Assembly: GCF_018873765.1 (NCBI RefSeq)
Contig: NC_057925.1
Coordinates: 49,178,010-49,242,009, forward strand
Length of the DNA stretch: 64,000 nucleotides
Origin: Telopea speciosissima
Taxonomy: Eukaryota; Streptophyta; Magnoliopsida; Proteales; Proteaceae
Direction: 5' to 3'
Numbering within the stretch: the stretch's first letter is position 1; each line of letters opens with the position of its first letter. Positions 4,268 through 44,100 of this stretch are shown piece after piece. The notes under the pieces were generated by a model, which saw nothing but the letters and a program-made list of their open reading frames with translations, ran no database searches and was not told where the DNA came from. Position numbers and translations under genes: made by a program.

Positions 4268-7200
4268 CCATAGTATTAATCAAGCTTAAAGTATCGTTAT
4301 CGGGTATCGTATCAAAAAAGGCGATTCTAAGACGTTCGCATCATATCAAAGAGACACAAGATATACTAAAGATACACATAGAAATGTTTAGGATACATGC
4401 AAAATACAATTTTGAAGCATAAATAAGTAATATGTAAAATATATCATGTATAAAGAGGAAAATAAAGTAAGACGAGACAAGTGTAGTCAATTAATTATGT
4501 ATACTGGATGAAGTTTCTTACTTTTACACACTAAAACGACATTAAAAATCAATATTTAAGCAAAAATCAAAGTTATGATAGAAAATTGTTCATGCGCAAA
4601 TCTAGTTTCGTTCCTTGATTGTAAGTTGTTTAATTACCAAATGATGATGAAACCAACATTACTAAAGTTGCTTTTGCCAGTAGAAACAAGGAATTATATT
4701 GATTTTTGCCAAAACAAAATTGATTACAATAGCTTACAGGAGCTTTGATAAGTGTTTTAAGTCATTGATTGAGTTATATAGTTTATAAGAAATGCATCAA
4801 GTGAATTGATAAGTATCAATCAATACATTATACAATCCCATGGGCTGTACTTGTAAGCTTTGATAATTAATGCATTATATTAGATCCATTCCAAACTATA
4901 TGATCCACACAAAATAATGTAAAAGTAAAAGTAAAAGTAATGCATGTATGATGATAATGTTATTTGGAATAAAAAAAACTACTGCAAATTAAAACCTCAT
5001 CTATCTCAATCCCAAGTTGATCAGGAAATTAAAGTTGTTTAAGATGAGTACTACTACTACTACTACTAATTAATGATAACATATTAAAAACCAAAGAAAT
5101 AAACCTATGACCTAATTAAATAGAAAAAGTTTTGCTTCTACGTACAAGGTTGGCAGCCAAGAAAATAGAATAATTCACTTCCCTTTTGGATTCATATATG
5201 GATACCTTCTTAGGTTTTAGTAATTTGTAAAATACCTTTTAAGATCCCATTTCCTCGGCTTCCCTGCTACAGTAACAGCGAAATTTCGTCCAATACGGCT
5301 GTGAAGAAATAACCCTGGCACCAATCCGATCAAGATTGTGAACAACTGCAGAAGCCTTCACACCTCCATGGTTGAGGAAAGCTTCCACCATTCGATTTCC
5401 AATCTCCTTAGCCTCCTCTTCATCATCTGTGACTGCAACAACCCTCATTTTATTTCCAATCTCCTTACTCTCTTCCCCATCTACAACCCTAGTTCCAATC
5501 AACTTACAACCTAATACTCCTTTCTCCCATGCCGCCTTCATCACCGCTGCAAGACCAGGAATTTTTGACGTCCTCTCCTGCTTCTCAAACACTTGCACCT
5601 CCAAGCCATCTACTACTTGCTTATCCCAAAATATTCTACACCCGAATGCTCCCTCAGCTTTCTTCCCCACTTTAAGACCAGGAATCAATGACTCACACTT
5701 GGGCCAACCCCTATTAATCCTTTCAGGTCCATGCATGTGAGATGCCATACGACAACAAATCCAAAAATCATTACCCGTTATCCTAACGGTTCTCAATTTT
5801 CGAGTTTCAATTTCTGGGGTTACTAGAACGAAAAACAAATCCTTCTCAGCAGGAAATTCAAGAGGAATTATTTCAAGACGCACGTAGTTGTCGATCATAA
5901 CAAATCCTCCCATGAATGCTGCCGTTAAATTTTCGATGTGACAATCTTTATAGTATGGCAATACAGAGAGACTTGCTTGGATTAAATCTACGACCGACAA
6001 TTTCCTTCCAAAAATCTCATTAACAGCAACAGCAGCTGCAGCAGCATTAGCAGCACTCGATCCAATTTTCCCTAACGCTGATAATCCCTTCTCGATAGTG
6101 AGGGAAAGACCGACGGATTTGATTCCCAGTCTTTCCATGACGGATCTTGCTGCTATTGCAGCGGAATTAAAAGAAGGGTCGAGCGTGTCGTAATTCCATA
6201 GCGGGTCGACCTCGCTCTCAACGGAATTGATTGATACTTTTGAAGGAGGAACGGGGTGGTCTGAAATTTCCACGGTAACATAATTGCCAAGCCCATCGAT
6301 CGCGCAATTGATTACATCATCATAGTTCGGGTCCCCCACGTCAGCTATCGTCGCCGGTGCAAAGGATTTCACAGAGGAGAAAATGGGTTCCGGCTCAATT
6401 CTGAAAAACTTCGATGATGGCCGACAAGAATTACATCTGAACTTTGATAGCGGAGAAGAAGAATTGGATCTAAAAAACCAAAGGGACGGCAAAACAGAAG
6501 AAGAAGAAGAATTGTATTTAAAACTAAGGTTACGATGAGTTTTGGGTATTAAGTACTGACGGGCTTTTGTTGCTGTACCTCTACTGATGAACTTCTTCAA
6601 ACTTAACGCCATTAATTCCACCCTACCCCGATACGGATGGGTATCGTGTTGCAGAGTCGGCGGGGATTTGGTTTTAGGGGTTTTTTTTTGTAGAAGTGGA
6701 AAACTAACAATACTGCGGGAAGGAGGAACGGAGGGGAGGGAAGGGAAGATAAAACATATAAAAATCTTTTGGGATTCTCTTAATTTGTAGTAAATCCTAA
6801 TAGAATCACTCTAATAAAGGAAGGTAACAACTCCTCCTCATTCTTTCAACTAATAAGATAAGATTGTCATCCCATTTTTCTTCTCATTCTCACACGCCTC
6901 GACTCTTTCTTACCTTATATTTAAATACGTGGAAACATCAAAGCCTTCTCATGTGGGAAATCACATCTCTCAAGGATGACCCTTCACAGAATAGGATTTA
7001 TCGTAAAATTAAGGGTTGCTGAGTCTTTTGAGAGAAGTTTCAGAAATAGAAGATCGATTTTGGAGAAACGATTTGGGGGAAGATGAGGGCATTTTGGTAA
7101 TTATGCCCTAGTAAGGACATTTTGATAATTAGGCAGGATTAGATTCTTAAGAATAAATAATGGGGGTAAAAGAGTCTTTTCAAATTAAGTTATCGTAAAA

Positions 7201-7420
7201 AGGTCTTTTCATATTATGAACAAAAGAGTCAGGACAATTAGGTCTTTTTACATTTAAAAAAGATAAAAGAAAAGGTACTTTGGTCAAGTTTTTAGCACTT
7301 AACGTCTAAACTTAATATTATAGACTTGAATGGTTTTAGGGGGTAAAATAGGGGTGGTAAGTGGAATTTACCAGGGTGGTACGTGGACTTGTCAGAATCT
7401 TAGAGGGTATGAGGAATATT
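4268..7420. repeat. Segmental duplication, copy A
   Basis: This block matches 18,652-24,745 in the same orientation. Both begin at CATAGTATTAATCAAG, share the 3' flank of the homoserine kinase-like gene, the gene itself, about 330 bp of 5' flank (to about 6,935 and 23,445), and a further stretch around GAAGATGAGGGCATTTTGG (7,080 and 24,558) to GGTACGTGGACTT (7,378 and 24,717). Copy B is longer because a MULE and a LINE fragment sit inside it. Copy A lacks about 125 bp present in B at 19,283-19,407. Confidence 0.85.
5239..6612 (-). CDS. Divergent homoserine kinase-like protein, copy A (457 aa, intronless)
   Basis: A GHMP-kinase fold protein closest to plant homoserine kinase, the chloroplast enzyme that makes O-phosphohomoserine for threonine and methionine synthesis. 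The start is the ATG giving MALSLKKF; the frame stays open a little upstream but without another ATG. Residues 1-75 are Ser/Arg-rich, like a plastid transit peptide. Diagnostic stretches are SVKSFAPATIADVG (80-93), GLSLTIEKGL (168-177), SSAANAAAAAVAVNEIFGRK (185-204), AAFMGGFVMI (231-240) and DLFFVLVTPE (258-267). The three substrate/ATP motifs are altered: the usual ANLGPGFD is ADVGDPNYD, GSGLGSSAA is LGKIGSSAA, and the C-terminal SGAGPTAVAV loop is replaced by LIGTRVVDGEESKEIG. An IPG..-GC segment occurs twice (308-329, 348-374) and a 14-18 residue VTDDEE-KEIGN unit is also repeated (376-408). Kinase activity is doubtful; the frame is intact. It is longer than the usual roughly 370 aa. Confidence 0.85.
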   Translation of the reverse strand: MALSLKKFISRGTATKARQYLIPKTHRNLSFKYNSSSSSVLPSLWFFRSNSSSPLSKFRCNSCRPSSKFFRIEPEPIFSSVKSFAPATIADVGDPNYDDVINCAIDGLGNYVTVEISDHPVPPSKVSINSVESEVDPLWNYDTLDPSFNSAAIAARSVMERLGIKSVGLSLTIEKGLSALGKIGSSAANAAAAAVAVNEIFGRKLSVVDLIQASLSVLPYYKDCHIENLTAAFMGGFVMIDNYVRLEIIPLEFPAEKDLFFVLVTPEIETRKLRTVRITGNDFWICCRMASHMHGPERINRGWPKCESLIPGLKVGKKAEGAFGCRIFWDKQVVDGLEVQVFEKQERTSKIPGLAAVMKAAWEKGVLGCKLIGTRVVDGEESKEIGNKMRVVAVTDDEEEAKEIGNRMVEAFLNHGGVKASAVVHNLDRIGARVISSQPYWTKFRCYCSREAEEMGS

Positions 7421-7434
7421 TGGTGCATTTTAGA

Positions 7435-8791
7435 GGATTTGGCTCCTGTCCTGCCGTGGCGGGAGCTGGATGGTCCAGCACCCCTTAAGATGGAGACACA
7501 TGGCTTTTAATACATCCAACGGTCAAAAAAGGCATAGGCATATTGTAATCCCTTTTTCGTCTTTCACTCTCTCGTTCAACGAAACCCGACCCGAATATTT
7601 GACCATTTTGAAACCCATAGATTAAAACTCTAGTTTGTACTTTCTCTCGGCTCTTCCCCCTTTCTGATAGTCTCCATCTTTCCTGAGGGAACTCAGCTCA
7701 AACCCTAGGTGAACGGCTCCATCTTCCCATTTAAACGGCGATCGGTGACGGCGAGGCTAACCAGGTTATCTATAGAGATATCCTTCGCAGTTAGAAGCAA
7801 AACCAACAAAGGTGAAACCGTGAAAGGGGGCCACAAGGCCCACTGCGGGCCTACGGCACAGCAGCAAGGCAGAGAGAGGCGTATGACCTATTGAGGGGTG
7901 AGCGAATAGGATTTGGTTCCTCTACAAATCCTAACTAAGCCAAGCTATATCAAATTAGTTATATTTGAGGAACAAAAAAAAATTCTAATATTGCAACCTT
8001 TCTCTTGAAAAATTTCCTCTAACCCTTCCTTCTCTTCCATTGAGAAGATGGGAGATTCAATAAACTCTGCAATCCTTTTCAAGTGAAGAGCTGGTTCACC
8101 CACCATCTCGTAGTACCTGAGAAATAGCATATTTTGAGGCCTTTCTAAACTTGCTCTTCAAAATCCTCTCTCATATGGCACTGTGGGAGTATAACCCACG
8201 CATCACAACCCTCTTTGTTACTTCTGTTTCTCCTTTTATCAATCATCTTGACACAAAAATAGGGACCGTTAAGGTCGTCGAATCGCCCAACGGGTATCTT
8301 CCCAAAGAAGCGGTCCATCGTTCAAAGAAATAAATCGTGAAACAATGACTAGATATGACTGGACCTGCGAAATTAAGTAATTGAATCTGTAGAAGCAGAG
8401 GTGGAACTGTGGAAGTGGTGGTCGGAGGTTGCAGGGGTGTAGGAGAGGAAGAGGAAAGAGAAAGAGAAGAAGATGCTCATTTTATCTGGTTAGCCTCATC
8501 GTCGCCGTCGTCGTCGCTGTCACTGTCGCTGGATCCCTTGAAGAAGATAAAAGTTGCAAAGGAGGAGGGTTTTGAGGAGATGAAGGGGGAAGAGGAAGAG
8601 AAACGAGGGTTTTGAATCCATTTGGGTCGGGTTTCGTAAAACGAGAGGGTAAGAGAGGAAGATGGGTAAATATGGGTTAAAATAAGACTTTTTCATTTTT
8701 GGCCGTTGGATGTATTAAAGGCCATGTGTCTCCATCTTAAGGGGGTGGTGGACGGTCCAGCTCCCGCCACGACAGGACAGGAGCCAAATCC
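7435..8791. mobile_element. Pack-MULE 1 (non-autonomous Mutator-like element)
   Basis: Long terminal inverted repeats begin GGATTTGGCTCCTGTCCTG at 7,435 and end with the complement at 8,791. They stay similar for about 95 bp and more weakly to about 165 bp (the ACGAAACCCGACCC word). A perfect 9-bp direct repeat, CATTTTAGA, flanks the element (7,426-7,434 and 8,792-8,800), the target-site size expected of MULEs. There is no transposase. The interior carries a sulfotransferase gene fragment. It lies about 0.8 kb upstream of homoserine kinase-like copy A and is absent from the matching place in copy B (about 24,735). Confidence 0.88.
8011..8157 (-). pseudogene. Captured cytosolic sulfotransferase (SOT) fragment
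   Basis: The minus strand reads RASLERPQNMLFLRYYEMVG and continues EPALHLKRIAEFIESPIFSM and EEKEGLEEI. Plant cytosolic sulfotransferases carry the same run (WKASLERPQNVLFLKYEDM, then P..HLKRLAEFLG.PFS.EEE), which lies between the sulfate-acceptor core and the PAPS-binding C-terminus. Only about 49 residues are present. Upstream sequence looks like a decayed continuation; the frame is closed just before RASLE. It lies wholly inside Pack-MULE 1, so it is a transduplicated piece and not a gene in place. Confidence 0.78.
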
Positions 8792-8800
8792 CATTTTAGA

Positions 8801-9425
8801 GAGTACGTACGTGTATTTTACCCCCAAAAAAAAATCACATACCTCCCCAACTTTTATAAGCTAATATCAAAATGGTCCACTTCCTTAATTGCGTCATCAA
8901 GTTAGATTTTATAAAATGGTCAAATTTACAATTTTACACTTTATTCAAAAAACCCCAAATCGCTAAGGGATACAATTTAAGGTTAGGTTTCCCTGCAAAC
9001 CTTTTCTTATTCAACGAAGCATTTTTTCATGAAAGCTTAGCTCCGTTCAGGGAGGGAAGAATATTTTGTCCTTCGATGACAAAATGAAGGGTCGAAATAA
9101 CTAACAAGTGACAGTTTTTCGCGTTTTTGAAGAAACTGCTTTCAACTAGCAGCTGAGAGAAGGGCTGGGCAGCTGAGATTGTTATAAGTGAGTACCTTTT
9201 TATGTTTGTTCGTTTGGACTTTGGAAGAACAAATAAAAGCATTTTCCTTCCTCACTACCATCTCGAGAGAAGCAATCGGCTTGAGATATGCATTGTATCG
9301 AACTTTCTAACTCTGGATGGATGAGACAGAGCCAAAAAAATGACACAATGGCATTACTGATTTTTACTGAAGATGATTTGATTTCCCCTGCAAGATCTCA
9401 ATAGGATCGATCGAAATAAATGGGC
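8801..9425. other. Intergenic between Pack-MULE 1 and the Copia element
   Basis: About 620 bp with no coding frame above 71 codons and no recognised repeat. It ends with the left copy of the Copia 5-bp target duplication, TGGGC, at 9,421-9,425. Confidence 0.6.
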
Positions 9426-9948
9426 TGTTAGAATTTTAGTTCTAATAAAATTCCATATGGACATAATTAAATCCCTAAACCAACTAATTAGGGTTTTGGT
9501 CTAATAAAGTGGGGTCATTAAGTTATATTAGAAATCTAATGTGGACTGGCTTAGTGTGGGCCAGATAGATTCCTATTGGGACTGTGATGAGTCAGACCCT
9601 ATAGGGATTACTATATAAGGAGAGCTAGGTCCCCCCTCTACCCAAGACAACTATTATTATTCTCAATTGCTATTGAGAAGTGCATTCTTGAAAGAGAGGG
9701 AGATATTCAGTGTTCGTCATCCTTGCGCATTCGGTATTCTCATCAGGCCAGTTACTTTAGGAATAGAGGGGAAGCACCTAGATCTTTGTTTTTTATTTTC
9801 CACTGCAATCATCATCACTATGGATGCAAAACAAGGTTGGTGGTTCTATCCCTATTTTCTATTATTTGATTTGATTGTGTTCTTGAACGCCCTATGAAGA
9901 TCCTGGCTTTTGGGATTTTGTCCCTATTCGGATCGATTCATTCTAAAA
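9426..9948 (+). repeat. 5' LTR of the Copia element (523 bp)
   Basis: It starts TGTTAGAATTTTAGTTC and is followed directly by the primer binding site. The terminal CA is changed to AA in this copy. A TATA-like ACTATATAAGGAG lies near 9,612. Confidence 0.95.
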
Positions 9949-12900
9949 TGTGGTATCAGAGCCTCCATAGATCCGTTCTTAAACCTATATGGATTCAAAA
10001 TAATAGAACATAATAAGGGAATCGAAAATTTTTCGATTCGAATCAAGGGTTTTAAGGGTTTTTTTCAGTTTTCCAAAAATCCGTACGGACACTGGCATTC
10101 TGCCGATTTTTTTAGCCGGCGAAAACAGAATCTAACCACATGGGTGCGTAGAGCACAAAATTTCAAAAATTTTGGCGGGTGGATCTCCCCCGGCCGACAC
10201 CGGATGCGCTCTCACGCGCCGTCGGCAGCGGCGGGTGATCTCACTCGCCGTCAGGTTTATTTTTTTAAAAAAAAAAAAGAGATTTCTGGGGTTTTGCTAT
10301 CGTACACCCCTGACAGGTATATAATCTTGCTAACGTGCGTCGTCGGGTCGGATCGACCCGCTGACCCGACCCGACAACCAGAACAGGGCTTACCTGAACC
10401 TGGTTGGACCGGACCCAAATCGGTTTATTTGAACCGGGGTTGAACCGAATTGATTTTGTTTGACTTTTCGGACCGGTTTGACCAGTACAGTCAACCAAAT
10501 TTGGACTTGAACTTTGACCGGGCTTTTTGGGGGCTACGAGACTCCGTTTGGGGTCCCGTTTTTTGCGTTGGCTCTGTTTTTCTGTGCTCTACACAGTGGT
10601 GCCCTCTGTTTTGATCAGATATGCATATTTTAAATATTTTTGATATTCTTTTGATACATGCCCTTTTATGTAATTTATCGATTCATTTTATTGGGAACCG
10701 AACCAATTTCTGACTTGTTGGAATACCTACCTTGATGAATAGAATTATTCTTATTTTTGTGTTAATTTTAAGACATTTAAAACCCCTTGTCATAAATTAT
10801 AAAATAACACATTGTTTAAGGATGTAAGTAATTTTGAAAAATCCTGAAAGAGGGTTTCATGTTTTCGACAGGATGCAGCCGCCAAAGTGACCTTCCTTGT
10901 TGGATTTGTGAAACACCAGTCTTATACAGTTGTAGGATGTCCTTCAACTCTGATATGTGGTCATACACCCAAAGGTGGTGATCATGTATTGGTACTTGAA
11001 GGGGTACATATACAGTATGCATGTGAATAGGTTGACCCTAGAATTCTGCACACCCAAAGGTGGTGGATTTTGAAAGTTGAGCTGTATTCCCATGGCCTGG
11101 TATGTAGGGATTTTTACAATTGCATATTGAGAATTCAGCCCAAAGGTGTTTTCACAATGATGTGTGTAAATTTCTCATTAGCTTATAAAGTTTTCAAGCT
11201 GTACTTGCATCATTTTAATTATTGTACTATTCATTGTTTAAATTTTCAGTCACCTTCTTTGTCAATAATAACATGGTTACTATTGAGCTCCTCACTGGGT
11301 CAAACTTTAAGAAGTGGAAAGAGGACATTATGTTTGCTATGGAAATGGCAGATGTGCATACGTCCCTTGTTATGGATACACCAATAGAACTAACTGCTGA
11401 TAGTACTGAAGATGAAAAGTCTGTGCATGCTGCATGGCAAAAGAGTAATCGACTCAGTATACTGTCCATAAAGAGGTCGATACCGGAATACCTAAAAAGT
11501 GGTCTGCCTGAGAAATGTATTGCCAAGGAATTGCTAGATGCAATCTCCAAGAGATACAAAGTTTCATCGAATGCTGAGATTGGGACACTTCTGCAAAGGT
11601 TATTTAATATGGAATATGATGGTTCTGGGGGTGTTAGGGATTACATTATTAGGATGGTTGATTACCAAACTAAACTCAAGGCCTTAGACATTCCTCTTCC
11701 AGATGCCCTAATTGTCCATCAAGCCTTAAATACCCCACCTTCTGAATTTGGCATCATAAAAACCAACTATATTTCCCAAGATGGAGTCTGGAGCATTAAT
11801 GACCTAATTTCTAAGGTTGTGTCTGAGGAAGAGAAACTGAAGAAAGAGAAAAAGCCTACTGCCATGTTTACTTCCAAAGCCCGTAAGAGTAAAAAGTCTA
11901 AAACTATACTCATAAGTCTCCATAATAAATAGTCCAATCGGACTAACAATTTGGGACTCAAGAAAGACTCTTTGAAGAAAGAGAGTGATCGCTGCTTCTT
12001 TTGCAAGAAGAAGGGTCACATGAAGAAGGACTGCGACAAATACAAGGCTTGGTTACTCAAGCCCAAGCAGCCATCAGGTAATGATTCTTTGGCTATAGTT
12101 TGTGAATCCAATCTATCAGAAGCCCCATCTAGTTCTTGGTGGCTAGATAGCGGTGCAACTAACCATGTTGCTTTTACTATACAGGGGTTCATAAACCGGA
12201 GAAGGCCAAACAAGGATGAATCAAGGCTAGTCGTAGGAAATGATGGACATTCTGATGTAGAGTTCATGGGAGATGTAATTTTATTATTAGATTCTGGTTT
12301 TAAATTGACTTTAAAGAACATTTTTTATGTACCGTCCTTTAGGCGGAATTTAATTTCGGTTTCAGTTTTGGACATTAATGGTTTCTATTTTGAAATAAAG
12401 AATACTATGGGTACTTTATTTTTTAATTCAACTAAAGTTGGTTCCTGCTTTATGTCCAACGGATTGTACAGATTGTGTTTGTCTCCCACTGATATCTACG
12501 TCTCCTGTAATGTTGAAAACGTTGTTTCTAAAAGACCCTTACCTAAAGAACGGTCTTTCACATTGTGGCATAAGAGGCTAGGTCATATTTCTAAGGCAAG
12601 AGTGGAAAGGCTGATAAAGTCTGACATCCTGCCTACTCTTGAAAGTGATCTAGAAACTTGTGTAGACTGTTGTAAGGGAAAGATGACCAAAATAAAAAAG
12701 AAAACTGCAGTCCATAGTTCTGACCAGCTAGAGGTCAATCACATTGACATCAGTGGTCCCTATGCAGCCACATTGTGTAAAAAATTTTATTTCATCACTT
12801 TTACAGACGATTATTCCCGATATGGATACCTGTACTTAATTAAAGAAAAGTCTGAATCTCTTGACAAGTTCAAGATTTTTAGGACTGAAGTTGAGAAACA

Positions 12901-15900
12901 GTTAGGGAAAGTTATTAAAATTGTTAGATCAAATCGTGGGGGTGAGTATTATGGCAGACATGGCGATGCTGGACAGCCTAAGGGCTCGTTTGCCAAATAC
13001 CTTGAGGACTCTGGAATAGTTAGTCAGTTTACTATGCCAGGAAGTCCTGAACAAAATGGGGTCGCCGAAAGGCGTAACCATACCCTTATGGACATGGTGA
13101 GGAGTATGGTTAGTAGGACAAATTTACATAAGTTCTTATGGGGTGAAGCCTTGAAAACTGCTCTTTATATCCTTAACCGTGTACCTACTAAAGCTGCTCC
13201 TCTTACACCTTTTGAGTTGTGGACCGGTCGTAAACCCAGTTTAAACCATCTTAGAGTTTGGGGGTGCCCTGCAAAAGTGAAGTTGTATAATCCGACTTTA
13301 AACAAGTTGGATCCTAAAACTACTCGTTGCTACTTTGTCAGCTACCCAGATCATTCGAAGGGATATAAATTTTATAATCCCTACGGAGGTACTAGGATTG
13401 TGGAGTCACAGACAGCGAAGTTTCTGGAATTTAATGTGGCTGAAAAGAATGATTGTTCTCAGGCTGTTCAAGATAGTCACATGGTTGGTACATCAGTAAC
13501 TATTCTTCTACCTATTCGGACGGATGTGGGGCATACTGTGCCATTGGTTACACCTGCTGGAGTTCAGGAGCCTGATATTGATACCGCCCTCGACATTCAT
13601 GTAGCACCTAATGAGATTCCTCTTATTCAGGATGCGGTTGAGGATCCTATCATTGATGCAGTTCCAGCTGAGATTCCTCAGATTTAGGTTGAGGCAGTAG
13701 TGGCACCATTACGGAGATCCACCAGGGAGAGAAGGTCAACTATATCACCTATCTATGAGGTCTATCTGGGAGAACATGACTATGACATTGGTTGTGTGGT
13801 CGATCCAGTTACTTATTCAAGCGATGTTTCTAGTCCTCAGTCAGATTTGTGGATAGATGCGATGAGAGATGAAATACAATCGATGAAACATAATGATGTT
13901 TGGGAGCTTGTTGATTTACCTAAAGGTTGTAAGCCCATTGGTTGCAAATGGATGTATAAAACCAAAAGAGATTCCAAAAGAAAAGTTGAGAGGTTTAAAT
14001 CCAGACTGGTACCCAAGGGATTCACTCAGAGAGAGGGAGTAGACTACAATGGGACTTTTTCTCCAGTCTCCTTGAAGGATTCCTTCAGGGTGATCATGGC
14101 ATTGGTAGCTCATTTTGATATGGAGCTGCATCAGATGGATGTTAAAACCGCCTTTCTCAATGACAATCTTGATGAGAAAGTCTATATGGTTCAGCCTGAG
14201 GGTTTTTCAGTGGATGATTCAGATCATCTTGTGTGTAGACTCAAGAAGTCTATCTACGGTCTCAAACAAGCTTCTAGGCAGTGGTATCTGAAATTTGACA
14301 GTGTTGTGATTTCGTTTGGTTTTATGAAAAACAAAGTGGATTAGTGTATATATCACAAGATCAGTGGGAGCAAATTCTATTTTCTCATTCTATTTGTGGA
14401 TGACATCCTGCTTGCAAGCAGTGACCTAGGGATGTTGCATAATACAAAGCAACTTTTATCTAGGGAATTTGACATGGACCTTGGTGAGGCCTCTTTTGTT
14501 CTTGGGATTGAGATCCATAGGGATCATTCTCGTTGTTTATTAAGTCTTTCTCAGAGGGCTTATGTTGATCGTGTTCTTGAGAGGTTCAGTATGCTGGATT
14601 GCAAACCTGGGAATGTTCTTGTTCTCAAGGGTGACAAACTGAGTTCGACACAGTGCCCAAAAAATGAAGCTGAGAGGGATGAAATGAAGAAGGTGTCTTA
14701 TGCTAGCGCACTTGGTAGTATCATGTATGCTCAGGTCTGTACCAGACCGGATATTGCTTTTGTGACGGAACTTCTTGGCAGGTATCAGTCAGATCTTGGT
14801 CTTAGCCACTGGGTTGCTGCCAAGAAAGTGTTGAGGTACTTGAAGGGGACAAGAGATTATATGCTGACTTACAGACACATTCCTGAACTCAAGCTAGTGG
14901 AGTATACAGACTCTGACTTTGCTGGCTGTGAGGATGACAGAAAATCCACATCAGGTTATGTTTTCTTGATGGCAGGAGGGGCAGTATCATGGAAGAGTAA
15001 AAATCAGACATTGGTGACCACTTCGACTATGCAGGCAGAGTTTGTAGCATGCTATGGGGCTGCTACTCAGGCTATTTGGCTCAGAAATCTCATAAAGGAG
15101 TTGACTATTGTAGATTTTATGGATAGACTCATCCAAATATACTGTGATAACAGCTCTGCTGTGTTGGTTATAAACAACAATAACGGACTTAGTGGGTCTA
15201 AACACATAGAGATCAAGTATTTGACCATAAAGGAGAGAATAAAGGAAGGTGACATTGCAGTGGAGCATATTGGTACAGATGATATGGTTGCAGATCCCCT
15301 AACCAAAGGTTTTCGCCCTTGTGTTTTTTAGAGACATGTCATGAGCATGGGCTTAGTTGCATCATGGGATGTGGTTAGTTAGTGAGAGTTTGTTTTATTT
15401 TGCTTCATTGTAATTTAAAGTTTCTTTTCATCTGTATTTTTACCTTATGGTAAACCTTGGTTTATATATATATCAGGTGTCATTGCATGCAGTTTCTTTT
15501 AAACACATGAGTGTTTTATTTATTGACATGATGAATATATTTCTAATTTTAAAGTCTTAAGGAATGTGTTAATCTTAAGCAAAGCTGGGGCATGAAGTTG
15601 TTAGCCTAAAGGTATGTCTTGTAACACATAAAGTATAACTCGAGTTATTTCTGATGAGACATACAGATTCGTTAGAATCACAAAGTTTATTTCTCTAGTG
15701 AGCCTGTGCCACTTAAAGAAGAGAGATTTTGGATTGATAAATGTATAATACATAAGGAACCACTACGTGAGTATTATCTCATTGCCACACTACCACATTG
15801 CATCCATGTTAATTAGCAGAGTTGAGGACTCTCGTGACCATGGAAGGCTCTGTGTCGCTTGATCATAAATGCAGTTACCGCCATAATTCGGTGTCTAAAA

Positions 15901-16070
15901 CTCTATGGGATAGGATTGACTTTCTAATATGACCTCTAGACCAATTTATTTTAAAATTTGTGCAATTAAAGTTTTCTTAAAGAGTTGTTAGCCTGTGATT
16001 TGTTTTGGTCAAAACTATTTTTAAATCTTTTTAAAAAATAAGGAATTTAATGTAAGTCCAAGTGGGAGAA

Positions 16071-16591
16071 TGTTAGAGTTTTAGTTCTAATAAAATTCCA
16101 TATGGACATAATTAAATCCCTAAACCAGACTAATTAGGGTTTTGGTCTAATAAAGTGGGGTCATTAAGTTATATTAGAAGTCTAATGTGGACTGGCTTAG
16201 TGTGGGCCAGATAGATTCCTATTGGGACTGTGATGAGCAGACCCTATAGGGATTACTATATAAGGAGAGCTAGGTCCCCCCTCTACCCAAGACAGCTATT
16301 ATTATTCTCAATTGCTATTGAGAAGTGCATTCTTGAAAGAGGGAGATATTCAGTGTTCGTCGTCCCTGCGCATTCGGTATTCTCATCAGGCCAGTTACTT
16401 TGGGACTAGAGGGGAAACACTTAGATCTTTGTTCTTTATTTTTTGTTGCAATCATCATCACTATAGATGCGAAACAAGGTTGGTGGTTCTATCCCTATTT
16501 TCTATTATTTGATTTGATTGTGTTCTTGAACGCTCTATGGAGATCCTGGCTTTTGGGATTTTGTCCCTATTCGGATCGATTCATTCTAACA
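16071..16591 (+). repeat. 3' LTR of the Copia element (521 bp)
   Basis: It starts TGTTAGAGTTTTAGTTC after the purine tract AAGTGGGAGAA and ends TTCTAACA before the TGGGC target duplication. A hand comparison with the 5' LTR gives roughly twenty substitutions and three small length differences. Confidence 0.95.
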
Positions 16592-16596
16592 TGGGC

Positions 16597-17870
16597 AACC
16601 ATAGAAAATAAGTAGAGATCCAAATGAAGGAAGTCACTCACTTTATAATGATTTATAGAGAAAACATGTGAGAAGACATTCAACCCCGAAGCTTGATCTT
16701 CAGTAAGAGTGAGTTTGTTTGTTTTGTTAATTTTAACAAACACCATTAAGGAGGATGATTTCCTGTACGAAATGAATAAATGGGCTGATGCAGATGAATC
16801 TAATTAAATATTCAAATGCCTTGGATAAGGCTGACGATGGGAGAGCTAGCAATGTCATTGAGGAGCTAGAGTGGAAGAAATTTATCGAGCAAGTAATCGA
16901 TTCTAGAATCTAGGCACGCTCTTGCAGCTGCTCGATCAAGTCCCGTTATTTTCAATCTTTTCGAAACATTGGAATTGCGCTTCGGCGATACGCAGAGTCG
17001 CAGAGGCTGAGGTATTGATGGAATAATCCTTCTCAATTTTTGCAACTGAACTTGATATATAAAACTCCGGCCTTCTCACTCATCTTACCCATCTCCATCC
17101 CCTTCTCACATTGCCGATACTCTGGATTCACCATTACAAAACGAAAGTCTCATTTCACCTCTGCTCTCCAACTTGAGTTACATGAGATTGGGAGGAACTG
17201 CAACGGTGAAAATCAGCAGAGGCAGCAAAAGAATCAACAACCCCAGCTTCGCAACCAGACGCCATCTAAAGAGTCTCAAGGCCCCTTACCTATTCAAAGC
17301 ACACCACTGGAATATGTTAAAATCACCGGGAGAGAATTAGGAACTCGAGGAGAGAGAGAGAGAGAGAAGAATCTCCAATTGGTAAACACCTCCAGGTTTT
17401 ACAGAGGATGGATGGGCGGTGGTGTTCTAAGAAGGAGGAGGAAGAAGACGAAGAGAAAAAAAGAATATATCATCAATAAAATGGGATATATGGATGTATA
17501 TACTAGGGTTAAAATGGTCTTTTTCTCTTCTTTTTTAGTTTTATTCAAAGTTTTAAATTAACACTGTTAGTGAAGAGGGGTGTGGTTGTATTTTTCTTTT
17601 TCAAATCGTGAGATTTCTTTGAGTTATGGGCTAGTTCCAGGGGAGGTACACATAATTTATTCTATTTTTAATGATATTTTGTCTTTTTTTTTCTTTTTTC
17701 TTTTTGTTTGTTTTTGGTAGAGTAGAGCTTTACTGATCATGTGACCCGCTCAAGGCTTCGGACATGCAAAGACGATGAAGCTAAGACAATGACCCGCTCA
17801 TGATCCATTACTGGGGACCCTTAGGACATCCGGGTATTATGGATTCGGCTCACCACATCGTAAAGTGCAT
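16597..17870. other. Unassigned stretch right of the Copia element
   Basis: About 1.3 kb with no recognised gene. At 16,800-16,910 a short plus-strand frame reads like protein (NVIEELEWKKFIEQVIDSRI). At 16,920-17,010 the composition becomes GC-richer, as if part of an exon, but no family was recognised. A plus-strand frame at 17,040-17,561 starts from a non-ATG codon and is Gln/Arg-rich; it is probably chance. Confidence 0.4.
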
Positions 17871-17879
17871 GAGTGAGCT

Positions 17880-18300
17880 GTCTATTGAACAACTCCGTGA
17901 GCTTGTCCATTTTACCCCTAACCGTCCTTATGTCATTAACAGACTCCACTAATGACTTATCGATAGATCCCTAAATATACAGTGAGGCTTTAGTATCCCT
18001 CACAATAAAGTCCTCATAGAAATCTATGTCTTCAGGGTCATCATCCTGGTGGGTTCTTGGGGAGGATCCTCATCAAGAACATTAACGAATCCTATTGCAG
18101 TTAGGAAGAACTTAATGCTCCGGTACCAGTCAACGTAGTTGGGTCCAGTCAATTTTGAATCATTTATAAGGGTCAAATAATTTGAATTAACGGTAGCCAT
18201 CGAATTAGAATCTACATATGTACAAGTAAACCACACAAATATTAATAACCATCGATAAAATTTGAGCATACATATCAATGGTCACTCATAATTTAGGTCT
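17880..18300 (-). mobile_element. Copia gag remnant
   Basis: A fossil piece on the minus strand. The words KLTGPNYVDWYRSIKFFL and GFVNVLDEDPP match the conserved start of Copia gag proteins (K L . G . N Y . . W). The flanks to about 18,640 look like further decayed retroelement sequence, but no LTR pair was found. It is an old remnant, unrelated to the full-length element in this window by sequence. Confidence 0.6.
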
Positions 18301-19821
18301 CCCTCATGACCCAAAAAATGAATTGGATACCTACAACCCTTGCATACATAATTTGCCTTGTCGGGAATCATTATATATACTATGGTAGTAATCTGTCAGC
18401 CTCATGGACTTCCAATATTTTCGGCCACCTGAGTATCATGTCTACATCATGTTGGCTGACATACACCCAAATCATGTATATACTTATTGCATTAGTTAAA
18501 ATCATGGAATCATAAAAGATGGTCCACTGTCGCAGTGCCCTCTCACTATCCACACCCTAACTTATCCAGATAGAAATAAATATAGATGATCTTGTGATAA
18601 TGAATCTGGCAATATCCTAACGGCATATGCGGGGTCATATCACACAACCTCCCCATAGTATTAATCAAGGTTTAAAGTATTGGTAACGGGTATCGTATCA
18701 AAAAGGTGATTTTAAGACATTCATATTATATCAGAGAGATGCAAGATACACTAAAGATACACAGAAATGTTTATGATACATGCAAAATATAATTTTGAAG
18801 CATAAATAAGTAATATGGTATAAAAAGGAAAACAAAGTACGAGAGACAAGTACACTCAATTTATTATATATAAAGGATGAAGTTTCTTACTTTTACTAAT
18901 ACATACACCTCATTAAAAAACAAAACAAAAAAACCCCCTAGTTTGATGCAATCATTCAGGTTGTCTTCACAAACTTAGTGATCCATTACAAAAAAAAAAA
19001 ACATTAAAAATCAATATTTGAACAAAAATTCAAAGTATTGATAGAAAATTGTTCTTACGCAAATCTAGTTTCGTTCCTTGATTGTAGATTGTTTAATTAC
19101 CAAATGATGATGAAACCAACACAACTAAAGTTGCTTTTGCTAGTAGAAACAAGGAATCAAATTGATTTTGCGAAAACAAAATTGGTTACAATACCTTACA
19201 GGAGCTTTGGTAAGTGTTTTAAGTCATTGATTGAGTTATATAGTTTATAAGAAATGCATCAAGTGAATTGATAAGTATCAATCATATCGAGTCATGTATC
19301 GACCTTCAACCCTATTCTGTTGAAACTTTTTTTAGGTATTGTATCGATACCCTAAAAATGAGATACGGATCAATTAGCATCGATGGATACCTTAATATAC
19401 TTATAACCTTGGTATTAATACATTATACAATCCCATGAGCAGTACTTGTAAGCTTTGATGATTAATGCATTTTATTAGATTCATTCCAAACTATATGATC
19501 TACACAAAATAATGTAAAAGTAAAAGTTAAATGTAATGCATGTATGATGATAATGTTATTTGAAATAGAAAAAACTACTGCAAATTAAAACCCCATCTAT
19601 CTCAATTCTCAAGTAGATCAGGAAATTAATTAAAGTTGTTTAAGAGGAGTACTACTACTGATATATTAAGAACCAAAGAAATAAATCTATGACCTAATTA
19701 AATGGAAAAAAACTTTGCTTCTACAAGGTTGGCAGCCAAGAAAATAGAATAATTCACTGCCCTTTTGGGTTCATATATAGATAGATACCTTCTTAGGTTT
19801 TAGTAATTTGTAAAATACCAT

Positions 19822-21150
19822 TTAAGAGCCCATTTCCTCGGCTTCAATGCTACAGTAACAGCGAAATTTGGTCCAATACGGCTGTGAAGAAATAACCCTA
19901 GCACCAACCCGATCAAGACTGTGAACAACTGCAGAAGCCTTCACACCTCCATGGTTGAGGAAAGTTTCCACCATTCGATTTCCAATCTCCTTACCCTCCT
20001 CTTCATCATCAGTGACTGCAACAACCCTATTTCCAATCAACTGACAACCCAATACTCCTTTCTCCCATGCCGCCTCCTTCACCGCTGCAAGACCAGGAAT
20101 TTTTGACGTCCTCTCCTGCTCCTCATCCGGATCCATCAGCTCTATTTGCAGTTCCCCTTCTCCTTGCTTAGCCCAAAATACTCTACACGCGAATATTCCC
20201 ACAGCTTTCTTCCCCAATTTAAGACCAGGAATCAATGGATTACAATTCGTCCAATCCCTATTAATCCTTTCAGGTCCATGCATCTGAGATGCCATACTTT
20301 TACAAATCGAAAAATCATCATCCGTTATCCTAACAGTTCTGATCAATTTCTGAGTTGTTTCGATTTCTGGGGTTACTAGAACGAAAAACAAATCCTTCTC
20401 AGCCGGAAATTCAAGAGGAATTATTTCAAGACGCACGTAATTGTTGATCATAACAAATCCTCCCATGAATGCTGCCGTTAAATTTTCGATGTGACAATCT
20501 TTATAGTATGTCAATACAGGGAGGGTTTCTCGGATTAAATCTACGACCGACAATTTCCTGCCAAAAATCTCATTAACAGCAACAGCAGCTGCAGCAGCAT
20601 TAGCAGCACTCGATCCAATTTTCCCTAACGGTGATAATCCCTTCTCGATAGTGAGGGAAAGACCGACGGATTTGATTCCCAATCTTTCCATGACGGATCT
20701 TGCTGCTATTCCAGCCGAATTCTGGTAAGGGTTGAGCGTATCGTAATTCCATAGAGGGTCGACCTCGCTCTCAACGGAATCGATTGATACGTCTCCAGGA
20801 CCAACGTTCCTTTTGATTTCCACGGTAACATAATTGCCAAGGCCATCGATCGCGCAATTGATTACATCATCATAGTTCGTGTTCCCCACGTCAGCTATCG
20901 TCGCCGGTGCAAAGGATTTCACAGAGGAGAAAATGGGTTCCGGCTCAATTCTGAAAAACTTCGATGATGGCCGACAAGAATTGCATCTGAACTTCGATAG
21001 TGGAGAAGAAGAATTGGATCTAAAAAAACAAAGGGACGGCAAAACAGAAGAAGAGTTGTATTTAACACTAACGTTACGAGGAGTTTTGGGTAGTAAGTAC
21101 TGATGGGCTTTTGTTGCTGTACCGATGAACTTCTTCAAACTCAACGCCAT
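19822..21150 (-). CDS. Divergent homoserine kinase-like protein, copy B (442 aa, intronless)
   Basis: Tandem paralogue of the gene at 5,239-6,612, about 85 percent identical in protein by eye. The start chosen is MALSLKKFIG, the position homologous to copy A; the frame runs open further upstream, but that part is not shared. It has the same Ser/Arg-rich N-terminus and the same core (GLSLTIEKGLSPLGKIGSSA, AVNEIFGRK, AAFMGGFVMI, FVLVTPEIE). The C-terminal phosphate loop reads LIGNRVVAVTDDEE where active enzymes have SGAGPTAVAV.D.E, so the Gly/Ala/Pro/Thr loop is lost. The IPG..-GC segment is doubled here too (306-326 and 348-374), but the second small repeat of copy A is absent. Differences from copy A are clustered (for example 112-123, 140-144, 207-213, 328-346). 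A MULE lies 246 bp upstream of the start. Confidence 0.85.
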   Translation of the reverse strand: MALSLKKFIGTATKAHQYLLPKTPRNVSVKYNSSSVLPSLCFFRSNSSSPLSKFRCNSCRPSSKFFRIEPEPIFSSVKSFAPATIADVGNTNYDDVINCAIDGLGNYVTVEIKRNVGPGDVSIDSVESEVDPLWNYDTLNPYQNSAGIAARSVMERLGIKSVGLSLTIEKGLSPLGKIGSSAANAAAAAVAVNEIFGRKLSVVDLIRETLPVLTYYKDCHIENLTAAFMGGFVMINNYVRLEIIPLEFPAEKDLFFVLVTPEIETTQKLIRTVRITDDDFSICKSMASQMHGPERINRDWTNCNPLIPGLKLGKKAVGIFACRVFWAKQGEGELQIELMDPDEEQERTSKIPGLAAVKEAAWEKGVLGCQLIGNRVVAVTDDEEEGKEIGNRMVETFLNHGGVKASAVVHSLDRVGARVISSQPYWTKFRCYCSIEAEEMGS

Positions 21151-21395
21151 TAATTCCCCCCTGGCCTGGCCCTTCTTCCAATTGAGGTACCGTTGTGTTG
21201 CAGAGTCGGCGGCGATCTGGTGTTTAGGGTTTTTTTTTTTGGGTAAAAGGGAAAAACTAACAATGCTGCGCAGGAGGAGAGGGGAAAACATATAAAAATC
21301 TTTTGGGATTCTATTCTCTTAATTTGTATTAAAACCATAATAGAATCACTCCAAAAAACGGAAGGTAACAACTCTTCCTCCCTTTAGAAAATAAA

Positions 21396-24490: not shown

Positions 24491-24759
24491 TTTATGTTTT
24501 TCAGGGCGGTGGTGGTGGTGGTGGTGGGTATGTAAAAGAAGATGATGATTTGGGAAAGATGAGGGCATTTTGGTCTTTTTAAATTTTTGCAAATAGGTCA
24601 AGGCAATTAGGTCTTTTCAAATTTTAAAAAAGATAGAAGTAAAGGTAGTTTGGTCATCTTTTATCATTTAATACCTGGTATGGACTTAAATGGCATTAGA
24701 AGGGTAAAGCAGGGGTGGTACGTGGACTTATCAGAAGGGTACGTGTCCTTTACCCTAAT

Positions 24760-41129: not shown

Positions 41130-44100
41130 TCACAGGAGTTCCTCCCCAGGGAGGTAAGAGTGAGACCCACCCTCAACATGTTTCTTCTTCCTATGGAAGA
41201 TACCACTGAGATTGGACAACAGTACCTTCTTTGAGACAGATGTCTTTTCTTTATCCAGCTTACGGACACCAACAACCTTCTCTGGTAGGTTCTGCTTCTG
41301 AACCATGGAGTTTTGTGTCGATGAAAGTGCAGAAACCTCTGAATCAAGAATTCTAGCAGCAGCTTCAGCAGATTTCTTTTGCTCCTTTTCACGCCACCTC
41401 AGTAGCTCTCCCTCAACAGCCCTCTTTGCTGCCTCTGCCATCTCTGCCCTCTTCAAAGCCGCCTCCGTTGCAGCCTTCATCTCCTCAATCTCCTTCTGGC
41501 CTGCCTCCAACCTCTTTAGTGCTTCATTCTCACCAGCCTTTACTGCTTCCACCTGAGCCATTGCAGCTGCTACTTTCATTTCAGCCAATTTATCAGATTC
41601 CTCAACTTTCCGGCTAAAAGACTCAAATTCCTCCTCTGAGATTGTGATCATTGCACCAGACTCTGATGTTGAAGCACGAGTTGCATTTGTTCTTTCAGAC
41701 AATAACTTAATCTGATCAAGGGCCATTGCCTCTGCTGCCTTTGCTTCTTCTGCCTCTTTCAGTGCAATCTGTAGTGTCATTTCTGCTCCTTCCAGGGCAG
41801 TCCGGGTGGCTTCGGCTTCTTTCTTTAGCTCTTCAACATTGCTCTTCGTTTCTTCTGCCTCTTTTCTTGCATTTTCAGATTCTAACGATAGCTGTTGGAG
41901 GGTAGAGATCAGCTCATCAGAAGCACCTTTGGCTTTAGATTCTTCAGTAAGGGCTGCTTCAAGCTCACCCTTACTTTTCTGGAGCTTGACATGCAAGTTC
42001 CCAGCAATAGATTCGGTTTCTGCTTCCTTCTCTTTTAGTTCAGCATGTTCCTTCTTCACTGCTTCCAGCTCCACTTTAAGGGACTCCACCAAGCTCCTAA
42101 GAGTGCTTTCTTCTTCTGCCACTTTTTGCAATACCTCTTTAGCACCATCAAGCTCTGAAGTCACAGTTCTTACAGAATCCAGATCAGAAGCGCGGGCATT
42201 TTCCATCTCCTTTTGTAAAGCCCCAATCTCAGCAGCTGTTTCAGCAAGCTTACCTTCGAGATTCCTGGTGATTTCAGGATCAAACTCTTTCTTCAAAGAT
42301 AGCAGTTTCTTCTGTGCTTCTTCCAGGGCAGCTCTATAAGACTGCCTTTGGACATTTTTTTCCTCAAGAATCTTTTCTTGCTCCTGCTGGGCTTGCATAG
42401 AAGCCAGCTTCACATGCCCAAGTGATTCTTGTGTGGCTGCAATCTCCTTTGACAGTTCAGCAGCCTTCTCTGCATTAGCCTTGGCTGTGACTTCAGCTTC
42501 TGCTGCTTGGTGGAGTGCAGCAGATTTTTCTTCCAGGGATGAGTCAAATTCCTGAAGGAATTTCCTGAGTTCTTGTTTGGCAGCATCAAGTTCAGAAATG
42601 GTGGCTGCATACTGTTCTCTGGCATTGTCCAACTCCTGTCTCCAAGCACCGTCAGTTTCAACAGGGCAACCAGAGTTTGCTTCATCCAGTTGCTTTGCTT
42701 GGTTCTTCGCCGCTTCTGTCACCTTAATTGCCGACTCCTTGGAATCTTTTACACTTTTCAATTTGTTGGTTAAATCCTCAACTGTTTTTTTAGCCCTTTC
42801 AAGTTCAGCAAATGCTTGGGCCTTGGTGGTTTCAGCATTTTTAAACTGTTCCTTCAGCTTGTTGAGCTCTTTCTGGGCCAGATGAAGTTGTGTCTCCTTT
42901 GCCAATACCCTCTGGCAAAACAAAAAGAAATCGGAAGCACAGATGTTAGACCTATGTCATGACATAGCAGTCAATGCATTACGTGTATTTCAAAGATTCT
43001 TCTGAACACTGTTTGAACCGTTGGCACCCAGCCAACTACAAACTTCCTATTTTACAGTTGAGAGTCTTGAGACTGGATATATCATATCTGTAAAATGGAA
43101 ATTCAGGCCTTGCCTTCTGACCCTGATTACTTGAAGTTGTAATCTCCACCTAATTAGTGGAATTTGAACTTCAAAGAGCAACAGGAATTGACTCATCATT
43201 ATAGGACTTTATCCCAATAAATCCACATCTAATTTACACTCACTGTTACCTTAAAACATTAGCTTCTAGAATTATGAACTCCAACCGTCCAAAAGCATGA
43301 TGCATCATATGATCATAAGCAGAAATCATTTCTGGGAGAGGGTTTCCGCCGCTGCCAGTGTGGGGGGTGCAATCTCCCACACCACACCAATCGGAGCCCG
43401 CGAATTTGTTTTGTCATAAGGGGCCCACGTAGTTCGGGAGGAGAGAGAGTGTCAAGGAAGCTTAGGTTTCATTTCAAATGAATTTACGTAATTTATAAAT
43501 ATCACAAAAGAAAATCCCACACTAGAAAAGTAATTTCTAAAAATTTGAACTTATTTTTAAAACAAAACGGCAAAGGCTAGCACTATGGATGTTTTACTTA
43601 GCACAATGGTCCACCCAATTTTCACCATGTGGCATGTAACATGGCAATTTCCAACCATATGGATAGGAAGGGCCCATCTTGAATTAGATCCAGGTAAAAT
43701 TTGATGGTCTCAAACTCAATCGTATGACCAACTTGTCGTGGATTTTTCTAGTATATTTTCAACAGTCCATATGTTTGGCTCTTATGACTTTTTAACACTT
43801 ATTTTGACCTTAGTTTTTTCCCTGTTGTATAATTTGGATAGGACTGAAAATTTGTGTAGGTTTATGGGGGCTGTGGGGTACATACACCAAATTTGGCTGC
43901 CAGGTGGACTGCCACAATTCAGATATAAATCAGGCCATTTTGCCAGCCTAGCAAAATGGCCCTAGAGGTAACATGATTATAGACTATCTAGGTTTGATCT
44001 TACAGTTACACGTCTTTCACCCATCTGTTGGATCGGATTTAAAAGGCCTAAGCTGCCTCTATAGTAATATAGGGATAACCAGGGGGGGGGGGGGGGGTTG

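Follow-up and report, generated by a model that had tools for sequence, protein, structure and literature searches.

A 64,000-nucleotide stretch of the Telopea speciosissima genome (NC_057925.1, positions 49,178,010 to 49,242,009; the window) carries two genes, A1 and A2, of a family derived from plant homoserine kinase (HSK). The family comprises two classes, A and B, and its best explanation, put at just under an even chance, is that it consists of plastid-targeted, non-catalytic pseudoenzymes with two subunit types, which bind a partner and evolve under diversifying selection. An HSK duplicate would have lost catalysis and been kept as a non-catalytic binding protein, probably imported into plastids; A and B would have been duplicated jointly as a unit, and they probably act as a hetero-pair, which is fused on C5. 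The scaffold would have been held while parts of the substrate loop, the motif 1-2 stretch and a rebuilt C-terminal segment changed under positive selection. Such change on a held scaffold would be expected of a pair whose binding partner is itself constantly changing; candidates are pathogen factors, selfish elements and co-evolving proteins of the host.

Both genes in the window lie on the minus strand and are recognised as single-exon, class A HSK-derived pseudokinase genes by their open reading frames and profile matches. Counted from the homologous ATG, A1 (5239..6612) has 457 codons and A2 (19822..21150) has 442, each followed by a stop; the open frames and the loop sequences are exactly those given in the original prediction. 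The genes had also been described as a tandem pair, and both are present, separated by a frame-broken copia element, but they are part of a larger family, with a 98% copy located about 46 kb away from A1. The N-terminal extension of A1 (residues 1-68, 6409..6612) is transit-peptide-like by composition, containing no acidic residues, 20 Ser/Thr and 14 basic residues, and the extension of A2 (residues 1-64, 20959..21150) is likewise free of acidic residues. Across the family the extensions comprise 53-81 residues with 0-3 acidic ones and are rich in Ser/Thr and basic residues. The A and B proteins may be imported into plastids.

The altered substrate loop reads ADVGDPNYD in A1 (residues 90-98, 6319..6345) and ADVGNTNYD in A2 (20869..20895), while the altered ATP loop is LGKIGSSAA in both (6049..6075 and 20602..20628). 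In A1, CHIEN (5929..5943) stands in place of the canonical HADN, and the conserved Glu that precedes it (residue 194 of the canonical HSK, H) is gone. The rebuilt segment of A1 contains an extra LIPG...FGCRI module (5632..5688), and A2 has a weaker LIPG module (20179..20235); in comparisons with the last module, none of 500 shuffles was as similar for A1 and seven of 500 for A2. The extra module is weak in B1 (6/500 shuffles) and is unsupported by the same comparison in B5 (32/500) and BF1 (348/500). At the canonical place, A1 has an IPG...GCKL module that precedes its altered C-terminal loop LIGTRV (5485..5565), and A2 has an IPG...GCQL module with the altered loop LIGNRV (20023..20103). The stretch upstream of A1 (minus strand, approximately 6613..6812) is alignable to other A and B genes and contains a telobox-like AACCCCTAA (6674-6682), and that upstream of A2 (minus strand, approximately 21151..21350) is alignable within the family and contains the telobox AAACCCTAA (21224-21232).

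The Pfam domain GHMP_kinases_N is detected in A1 and A2 with 34.0 and 34.2 bits (cut-off 22.3), and no other Pfam domains were seen in these proteins. NCBIfam homoserine kinase models also match them, with E values of 1e-17 to 4e-32, but the curated cut-offs of NF002288 (101.7 and 111.3 vs 194 bits) and TIGR00191 (63.9 and 72.4 vs 168.25 bits) are missed. A search for a canonical HSK and a phylogeny had been proposed with the original prediction. One canonical gene, H, was found by genome searches at C10:6851549-6852688, with a single-exon coding frame. A contig scan with plant HSK as the sole query returned no relative. In the tree, H, A and B together are split from 38 prokaryote HSKs with support 100/99, and A and B form one group with support 100/100, which indicates that the family descended from plant HSK. 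The stem of the A+B group measures 0.78 changes per column, compared with 0.15 for H. The GHMP fold is kept according to the Pfam matches and the predicted model of A1 (pLDDT 80.5, pTM 0.84), the first four PDB rows being homoserine kinases, with a large rmsd. Modelling of the fused protein was unsuccessful (pLDDT 44.7), with all single-domain rows of its alignment placed on the B half, and it lends the A-B pairing no structural support.

The family comprises 11 open, intronless genes on C10, C3 and C5, and an extra near-identical copy is present on the unplaced contig C690. An A gene is followed by an adjacent B gene at two loci, and a third locus has a broken B; the B adjoining A1 is broken. 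No B partner was found in a search near A2, A4 and B3 are separated by 47 kb on opposite strands, and the A copies lying close to B2 are broken; pairing is not retained at every locus. On C5, A and B are joined in two genes of opposite strand, each of which is one continuous frame (782 and 802 codons). The indels between the fused genes are all multiples of three (16/16); as relatives of one another, these genes may stem from a single fusion event. The A tree and the B tree have the same locus order, namely, C5, then C3, then C10-51Mb and then C10-49Mb. The frame of A5 ends 15 residues before that of A1, and the B frames end near the canonical end.

Selection acts unevenly along these genes. 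The mean dN/dS is 1.07 in class A (p=0.64 against 1) and 0.98 in class B (p=0.90), and the branch estimates are 0.19 for H and 0.99 for the family. A mean close to 1 is also the expectation from decay, and the original prediction had named this value, combined with an absence of transcripts, as a sign of pseudogenes; the number was indeed obtained, but it does not carry that meaning here, as it arises from a mix of constrained and fast codons. The M2a model was favoured over M1a in class A (p=4e-6, 11% of codons at 4.6) and in class B (p=1e-12, 7% of codons at 9.6), with 21% and 27% of codons, respectively, in a near-zero class. These site models, run with branch-length ratios fixed from M0, were significant in 13 of 14 variants. 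Residue D94 of A1, located in the substrate loop, is among the sites with a high posterior for positive selection, the posteriors being empirical Bayes values without parameter uncertainty.

Alignment error, gene conversion or multi-nucleotide changes might have produced the positive-selection signal in a family that is simply under weak constraint; this reading is rather unlikely, and it would be compatible with the others discussed here. Misalignment or conversion between paralogous genes could inflate the signal; the class B sites are clustered at 122-149 and 285-287, and a local-identity filter removes the signal in B (p=0.47) and lowers it in A (p=0.04). However, this filter drops columns in poorly conserved stretches, and hence fast codons, by design. 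Significance survives gap margins of 5 and 8 codons (6.5e-5 and 0.02 in A; 1e-5 and 0.0074 in B) and reduced sets (A2+A5+AF1+AF2, 0.0026; B1+B5+BF1+BF2, 0.042), and none of the 60 null simulations for each class reached the observed value.

The loss of canonical positions was scored in 40 columns with at least 90% conservation, defined on the same 39 canonical HSK rows that were scored. All 40 are retained in H and 92% in the worst of the 38 prokaryote rows, against 21 in A1 and 23 in A2, and 12 of the 40 are lost in every one of the 13 A/B domains. The universal losses include the F of motif 1 (N-L-G-P-G-F-D), whose other positions are partly lost; S157 and G158 of motif 2 (G-S-G-L-G-S-S-A-A); E194, the conserved Glu before HADN, which we take to be catalytic in HSK; G328 and P329 of motif 3 (S-G-A/S-G-P-T/S); and the Thr of T-x-x-x-R, which lies in a poorly aligned stretch. 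The Asn of HADN is retained in all 13 domains. The ATP loop is more degraded in class B than in class A, which retains part of GSSAA (the whole of it in A1-A3) and, in A1-A5, the HADN His. In class B this His is lost in 6/6 domains and the Gly of GLGSS in 5/6. The claim that all three GHMP motifs are altered thus holds in that the loss is beyond chance, but the ATP loop is altered rather than erased, as A1 and A2 retain GSSAA. The loss test rests on conservation; catalytic residue numbers for HSK were not found in the open literature, nor were active-site terms in PMC4258817. Since 12 highly conserved HSK positions are lost in all of the domains, kinase activity of the A/B proteins is unlikely.

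The alternative that the family represents a new enzyme, with an active site remodelled for another substrate, is itself unlikely. It would be consistent with the predicted retention of the GHMP fold and with the GSSAA, His and Asn residues that remain, and the expansion and fast change of the family fit specialised metabolism, in which such expansions are usual. Nevertheless, the conserved Glu, the ATP-loop Ser-Gly, the T-x-x-x-R Thr and the motif 3 Gly-Pro are lost in all domains, and class B has additionally lost the HADN His and, in most of its domains, the GLGSS Gly.

HSK performs a conserved reaction on the way to threonine, and its gene is known as a susceptibility gene. A slightly less probable proposal is that the A-B pair, as a plastid-localised pseudoenzyme of two subunits that are fused in places, is a recognition or decoy module in a molecular arms race, which mimics or guards the DMR1/HSK node, its loops diversifying against an outside factor. 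If true, a novel type of rapidly evolving recognition family inside the cell would have sprung from a core amino-acid enzyme. HSK is a dimer, and it is improbable, although conceivable, that A or B replaces one of its subunits, lowering or buffering the activity and shifting homoserine. The fold shared with HSK, the similar N-terminal extension and the C-terminal VAVTDD...LDRVGARVIS, which in an alignment by eye is among the best-kept parts shared with HSK, speak for such a regulator. Arabidopsis HSK mutants are reported to have increased homoserine and increased pathogen resistance, and basil with an edited HSK gene to have less downy mildew (PMC4258817, PMC8525366). However, HSK is a slowly evolving target, as its branch dN/dS indicates, and there is no evident reason why its regulator should have two subunit types or be under diversifying selection.

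Least probable is that the genes are decaying duplicates, pseudogenes drifting neutrally, whose open frames are a sampling effect. The mean dN/dS agrees with decay in both classes, as do the 11 broken A/B copies or fragments examined, besides which further short matches exist. However, about 37 nonsense changes (19.7 + 17.6) are expected under neutrality (on terminal branches alone, 13.0 in A and 14.2 in B), while a single one, in A3, was observed with the frame ends left out of the count. Seven of the nine pairs compared for indels have only multiples of three (73/73); in the remaining pairs, in which both frames are open, multiples of three make up 13/15 (B1-B3) and 15/21 (B1-B5) of the gaps in nucleotide alignments. 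Each of the 11 broken copies, among which four derive from a single captured fragment, has a gap that shifts the frame or a stop in register, including three at 1-2% divergence. The near-zero codon class also argues against drift. The frames thus appear to be held by selection despite the lost catalysis, within a set that was picked for open frames. The original interpretation of retained frames with lost loops as a pseudoenzyme or a new role is upheld by the canonical HSK elsewhere in the genome, the loss of conserved catalytic-site positions and the frames that have stayed open against the number of stops expected under neutrality. Independent acquisition from bacteria, loss of the sole HSK, and a sequencing or frame artefact were rejected in view of the grouping of A/B with plant HSK against the 38 prokaryote rows (100/99), the presence of the canonical gene, and the motif loss shared by 13 domains that are spread over C10, C3 and C5, respectively.

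A plastid-targeted family of paired, non-catalytic HSK derivatives binding a changing partner would, if true, clearly exemplify the conversion of a metabolic enzyme to a binding protein, and it provides a concrete gene set for asking what a dead HSK does and which partner changes. To our knowledge, no pseudoenzyme family of GHMP kinases has been described whose subunits are paired and fused and evolve under diversifying selection, and text searches of the literature found none. The A/B genes group with plant HSK (DMR1; ThrB type, GHMP superfamily), which they resemble in fold, transit-like extension, much of the scaffold and, as in H, a single exon. They differ from it in the three altered GHMP motifs and the 12 canonical columns lost in all domains, the rebuilt segment, in which most members have an extra IPG module, the division into two classes, the fusion and the fast evolution. 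The prokaryote HSK structures 4p52, 1fwk and 4rpf are the best sequence and fold matches, but they retain the motifs; residues 79-272 of A1 align with 4p52, and the C-terminal part does so weakly (8 bits). Pseudoenzymes in general, which include pseudokinases and PDX1.2-like partners of plant enzymes, share with the A/B family the loss of catalytic residues, the kept frame and the presence, in the same genome, of a paralogous gene for an enzyme that looks active. The rapidly evolving immune and conflict families of plants, such as NLRs and decoys, are similar in their clustered duplicates, birth and death, and fast codons, while the A/B family is distinguished by its origin from a metabolic enzyme and, in A1 and A2, by GHMP_kinases_N as the only Pfam domain.

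The window (C10:49178010-49242009 in the 822.9-Mb assembly; C10 is contig NC_057925.1) contains two single-exon genes derived from homoserine kinase (HSK) on the reverse strand, A1 (window 5239-6612, 457 codons) and A2 (19822-21150, 442 codons). The original prediction that the substrate, ATP and C-terminal loops are altered was borne out in both open frames. Pfam and NCBIfam place the two genes in the GHMP/homoserine kinase family, curated homoserine kinase cut-offs not being reached, and homoserine kinases are their nearest solved structures by sequence. The proposed check for a canonical enzyme in the source species was run on the genome. Whole-genome searches with the GHMP profile and H as queries, in which only the best candidates were scored, revealed a single canonical gene for the enzyme, H (C10:6851549-6852688), whose ANLGPGFD, GSGLGSSAAS, HADN and SGAGPT are all intact, and two decayed copies of H, on C7 and C6.

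A genome search with A1 as query, combined with reading of frames at the loci, defined a family of 11 open genes and one further copy on an unplaced contig; the open genes encode 13 distinct domains. Class A further comprises A3 (C10:49136192; 98% to A1, with a stop five codons ahead of the A1 end), A4 (C10:51280765) and A5 (C3:10484081), and class B comprises B1 (C10:49128464), B2 (C10:38911724), B3 (C10:51329155) and B5 (C3:10489095). The near-identical copy of B3 on the 17-kb contig C690 is perhaps an unmerged haplotype. Two genes, F1 (C5:15291537-15293882, reverse strand, 782 codons) and F2 (C5:15316974-15319379, forward strand, 802 codons), join an A and a B domain in one open frame (AF1/BF1 and AF2/BF2); the two are related to each other and lie in inverted orientation, and perhaps go back to a single fusion event. 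A class B gene lies 3-7 kb downstream of class A on the same strand on C3 (A5-B5) and at 49 Mb on C10 (A3-B1). A1 likewise has a class B copy downstream on the same strand, just left of the window (about C10:49175788-49177048), but it is broken, with a single-base gap and a stop in register. This copy is 97.5% to B1, and A1 seems to have lost its B partner recently. The exceptions to this layout are A2, near which no B was found, A4 and B3, which are 47 kb apart on opposite strands, and B2, whose adjacent A copies are broken.

Conservation was assessed against 39 canonical rows (H and 38 prokaryote rows of 80 fetched), in which 40 columns are at least 90% conserved. H keeps all 40 and the 13 A/B domains 16-23 each; the prokaryote rows retain at least 92%, but these same rows helped to define the columns. 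Twelve columns are lost in every A/B domain, namely F76, G80, S157, G158, S165, E194, D203, T248, P298, I324, G328 and P329 (H numbering), of which T248 and P298 sit in a poorly aligning stretch. This stretch has been rebuilt: in most members, the segment that follows strand PEIE and comes before the last module resembles a second LIPG..KKA..GAFGC.I module. Its likeness to the last module was better than all 500 shuffles in A1, A4, A5, B2 and B3, and was equalled by 1-7 of 500 in AF1, AF2, BF2, A2 and B1. The extra module is unsupported in B5 (32/500) and BF1 (348/500) and, as expected, in H (370/500).

In an unrooted tree with the 38 prokaryote homoserine kinases (drawn with midpoint rooting), H, A and B stand apart from the latter (support 100/99), and A and B form a single group (100/100) with a stem of 0.78 versus 0.15 for H. 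The locus order is identical in the A and B trees, with C5 earliest, followed by C3, C10-51Mb and C10-49Mb; duplication of the whole A-B unit is the simplest reading. In the B tree B2 (38.9 Mb) groups beside B1; support is lower in this tree (95/70 at the B5 step). Synonymous divergence (NG86) does not exceed 0.23 within A; it is 0.36-0.54 for A against B and 1.28-1.60 for H against A/B, and the split from H therefore looks much older than that between A and B.

Pairwise dN/dS (NG86) is 0.31-0.45 when H is compared with the family members, and mostly 0.7-1.4 among the members themselves. In a two-ratio model the H branch, stem included, has 0.19 and the family 0.99 (p=1e-10); the family value is indistinguishable from 1 (p=0.95). 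A value near 1 with no transcripts had been named as a sign of pseudogenes; the number was found, but here it averages over constrained and fast codons. The codon-likelihood code written for this analysis matched the IQ-TREE M0 log-likelihoods (-2755.65 and -2346.90), and 286 codons were kept in A and 238 in B. Under M2a, 21% and 27% of codons in the two sets fell in a near-zero class, with a fast class of 4.6 at 11% of codons in A and 9.6 at 7% in B. The M1a-M2a, M7-M8 and M8a-M8 comparisons each gave p below 1e-5 in both classes, and none of 60 M1a simulations per set reached the observed value (largest 11.7 and 10.6 vs 24.7 and 55.1). When trimming and gene sampling were varied, 13 of the 14 settings remained at p<0.05, several only just; the other, the B set under a local-identity filter, had no significant positive class (p=0.47). 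Eleven class A sites have a posterior >0.8 (7, 94, 117, 152, 165, 222, 304, 307, 322, 356 and 359): site 94 is in the old substrate loop, 222 stands right before CHIEN, 304-322 belong to the rebuilt segment, and the last module holds 356 and 359. The nine class B sites are 122, 126, 144, 145, 148, 149 and 285-287.

Neutral evolution would yield 19.7 nonsense changes in the A tree and 17.6 in the B tree, while one was observed, in A3, leaving out frame-end differences (A5 ends 15 residues before A1). Indels are all multiples of three (73/73) in seven of the nine pairs compared, the others being B1-B3 (13/15) and B1-B5 (15/21). All 11 broken A/B copies examined carry a frameshift gap or stop, three of them at 1-2% divergence, although four derive from one captured fragment and the comparison is biased by the picking of open frames. 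Even with this bias, chance would hardly account for several frames staying open, since single branches each expect three or four stops (A4 3.7, A5 4.4, B3 3.0 and B5 3.0). Simple decay is a poor fit to these sequences.

In a comparison of ten genes (A, B and fused), up to about 200 bases 5' of the ATG are alignable at 60-91% identity, and AAACCCTAA occurs in this stretch in nine of the ten rows, A1 having a variant; this conservation only hints at expression. The N-terminal extensions comprise 53-81 residues, 0-3 of them acidic. Mature A1 was modelled from 52 rows with a pLDDT of 80.5 and a pTM of 0.84; the model is poorly confident at the rebuilt segment (mature-chain residues 206-236), and homoserine kinases fill its first four PDB rows (rmsd 8-10).

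A piece of class A coding sequence (A1 CDS 376-926) is also carried within a transposon whose long inverted ends begin GGGTAAAG, found in four copies (C3:28238115, C1:41178836, C2:9148448 and C1:69587727, the last without an inner part). Given these ends and the perfect 9-base target duplications in two of the four, the element resembles a Pack-MULE that took up the fragment and multiplied it. Window segments 24505-24756 and 7202-7436 resemble its inverted ends, the latter lying between the A1 start and a frame-broken Ty1/copia retrotransposon (11222-15331) that separates A1 from A2, with gag and reverse transcriptase above the Pfam cut-off and the integrase core slightly under it. N-terminal HSK scraps (mature residues about 1-57 or 1-76), 80-91% identical to H, occur at 18 places genome-wide (e.g. 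C6:48818702, C8:20085284 and C11:7140973), and may be another fragment picked up by a mobile element. At window 41133-42923 there is a large exon of a gene of the WEMBL (weak chloroplast movement under blue light) type.

In this family the canonical catalytic-site positions are gone, the frames are open, selection is uneven, the A and B trees are congruent, and A and B frames have been fused. The fused form may reveal the role of the separate genes, namely the formation of an A-B pair; such a pair would bind something, partly at the mouth of the former cleft and the rebuilt segment, and its partner would keep changing. No published account of a family of this kind turned up in an open-licence full-text library, and relatives in other genomes may exist, labelled simply 'homoserine kinase'. 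The Arabidopsis HSK gene is described as a susceptibility factor (PMC4258817), so that a conflict setting would be plausible for the Telopea family.
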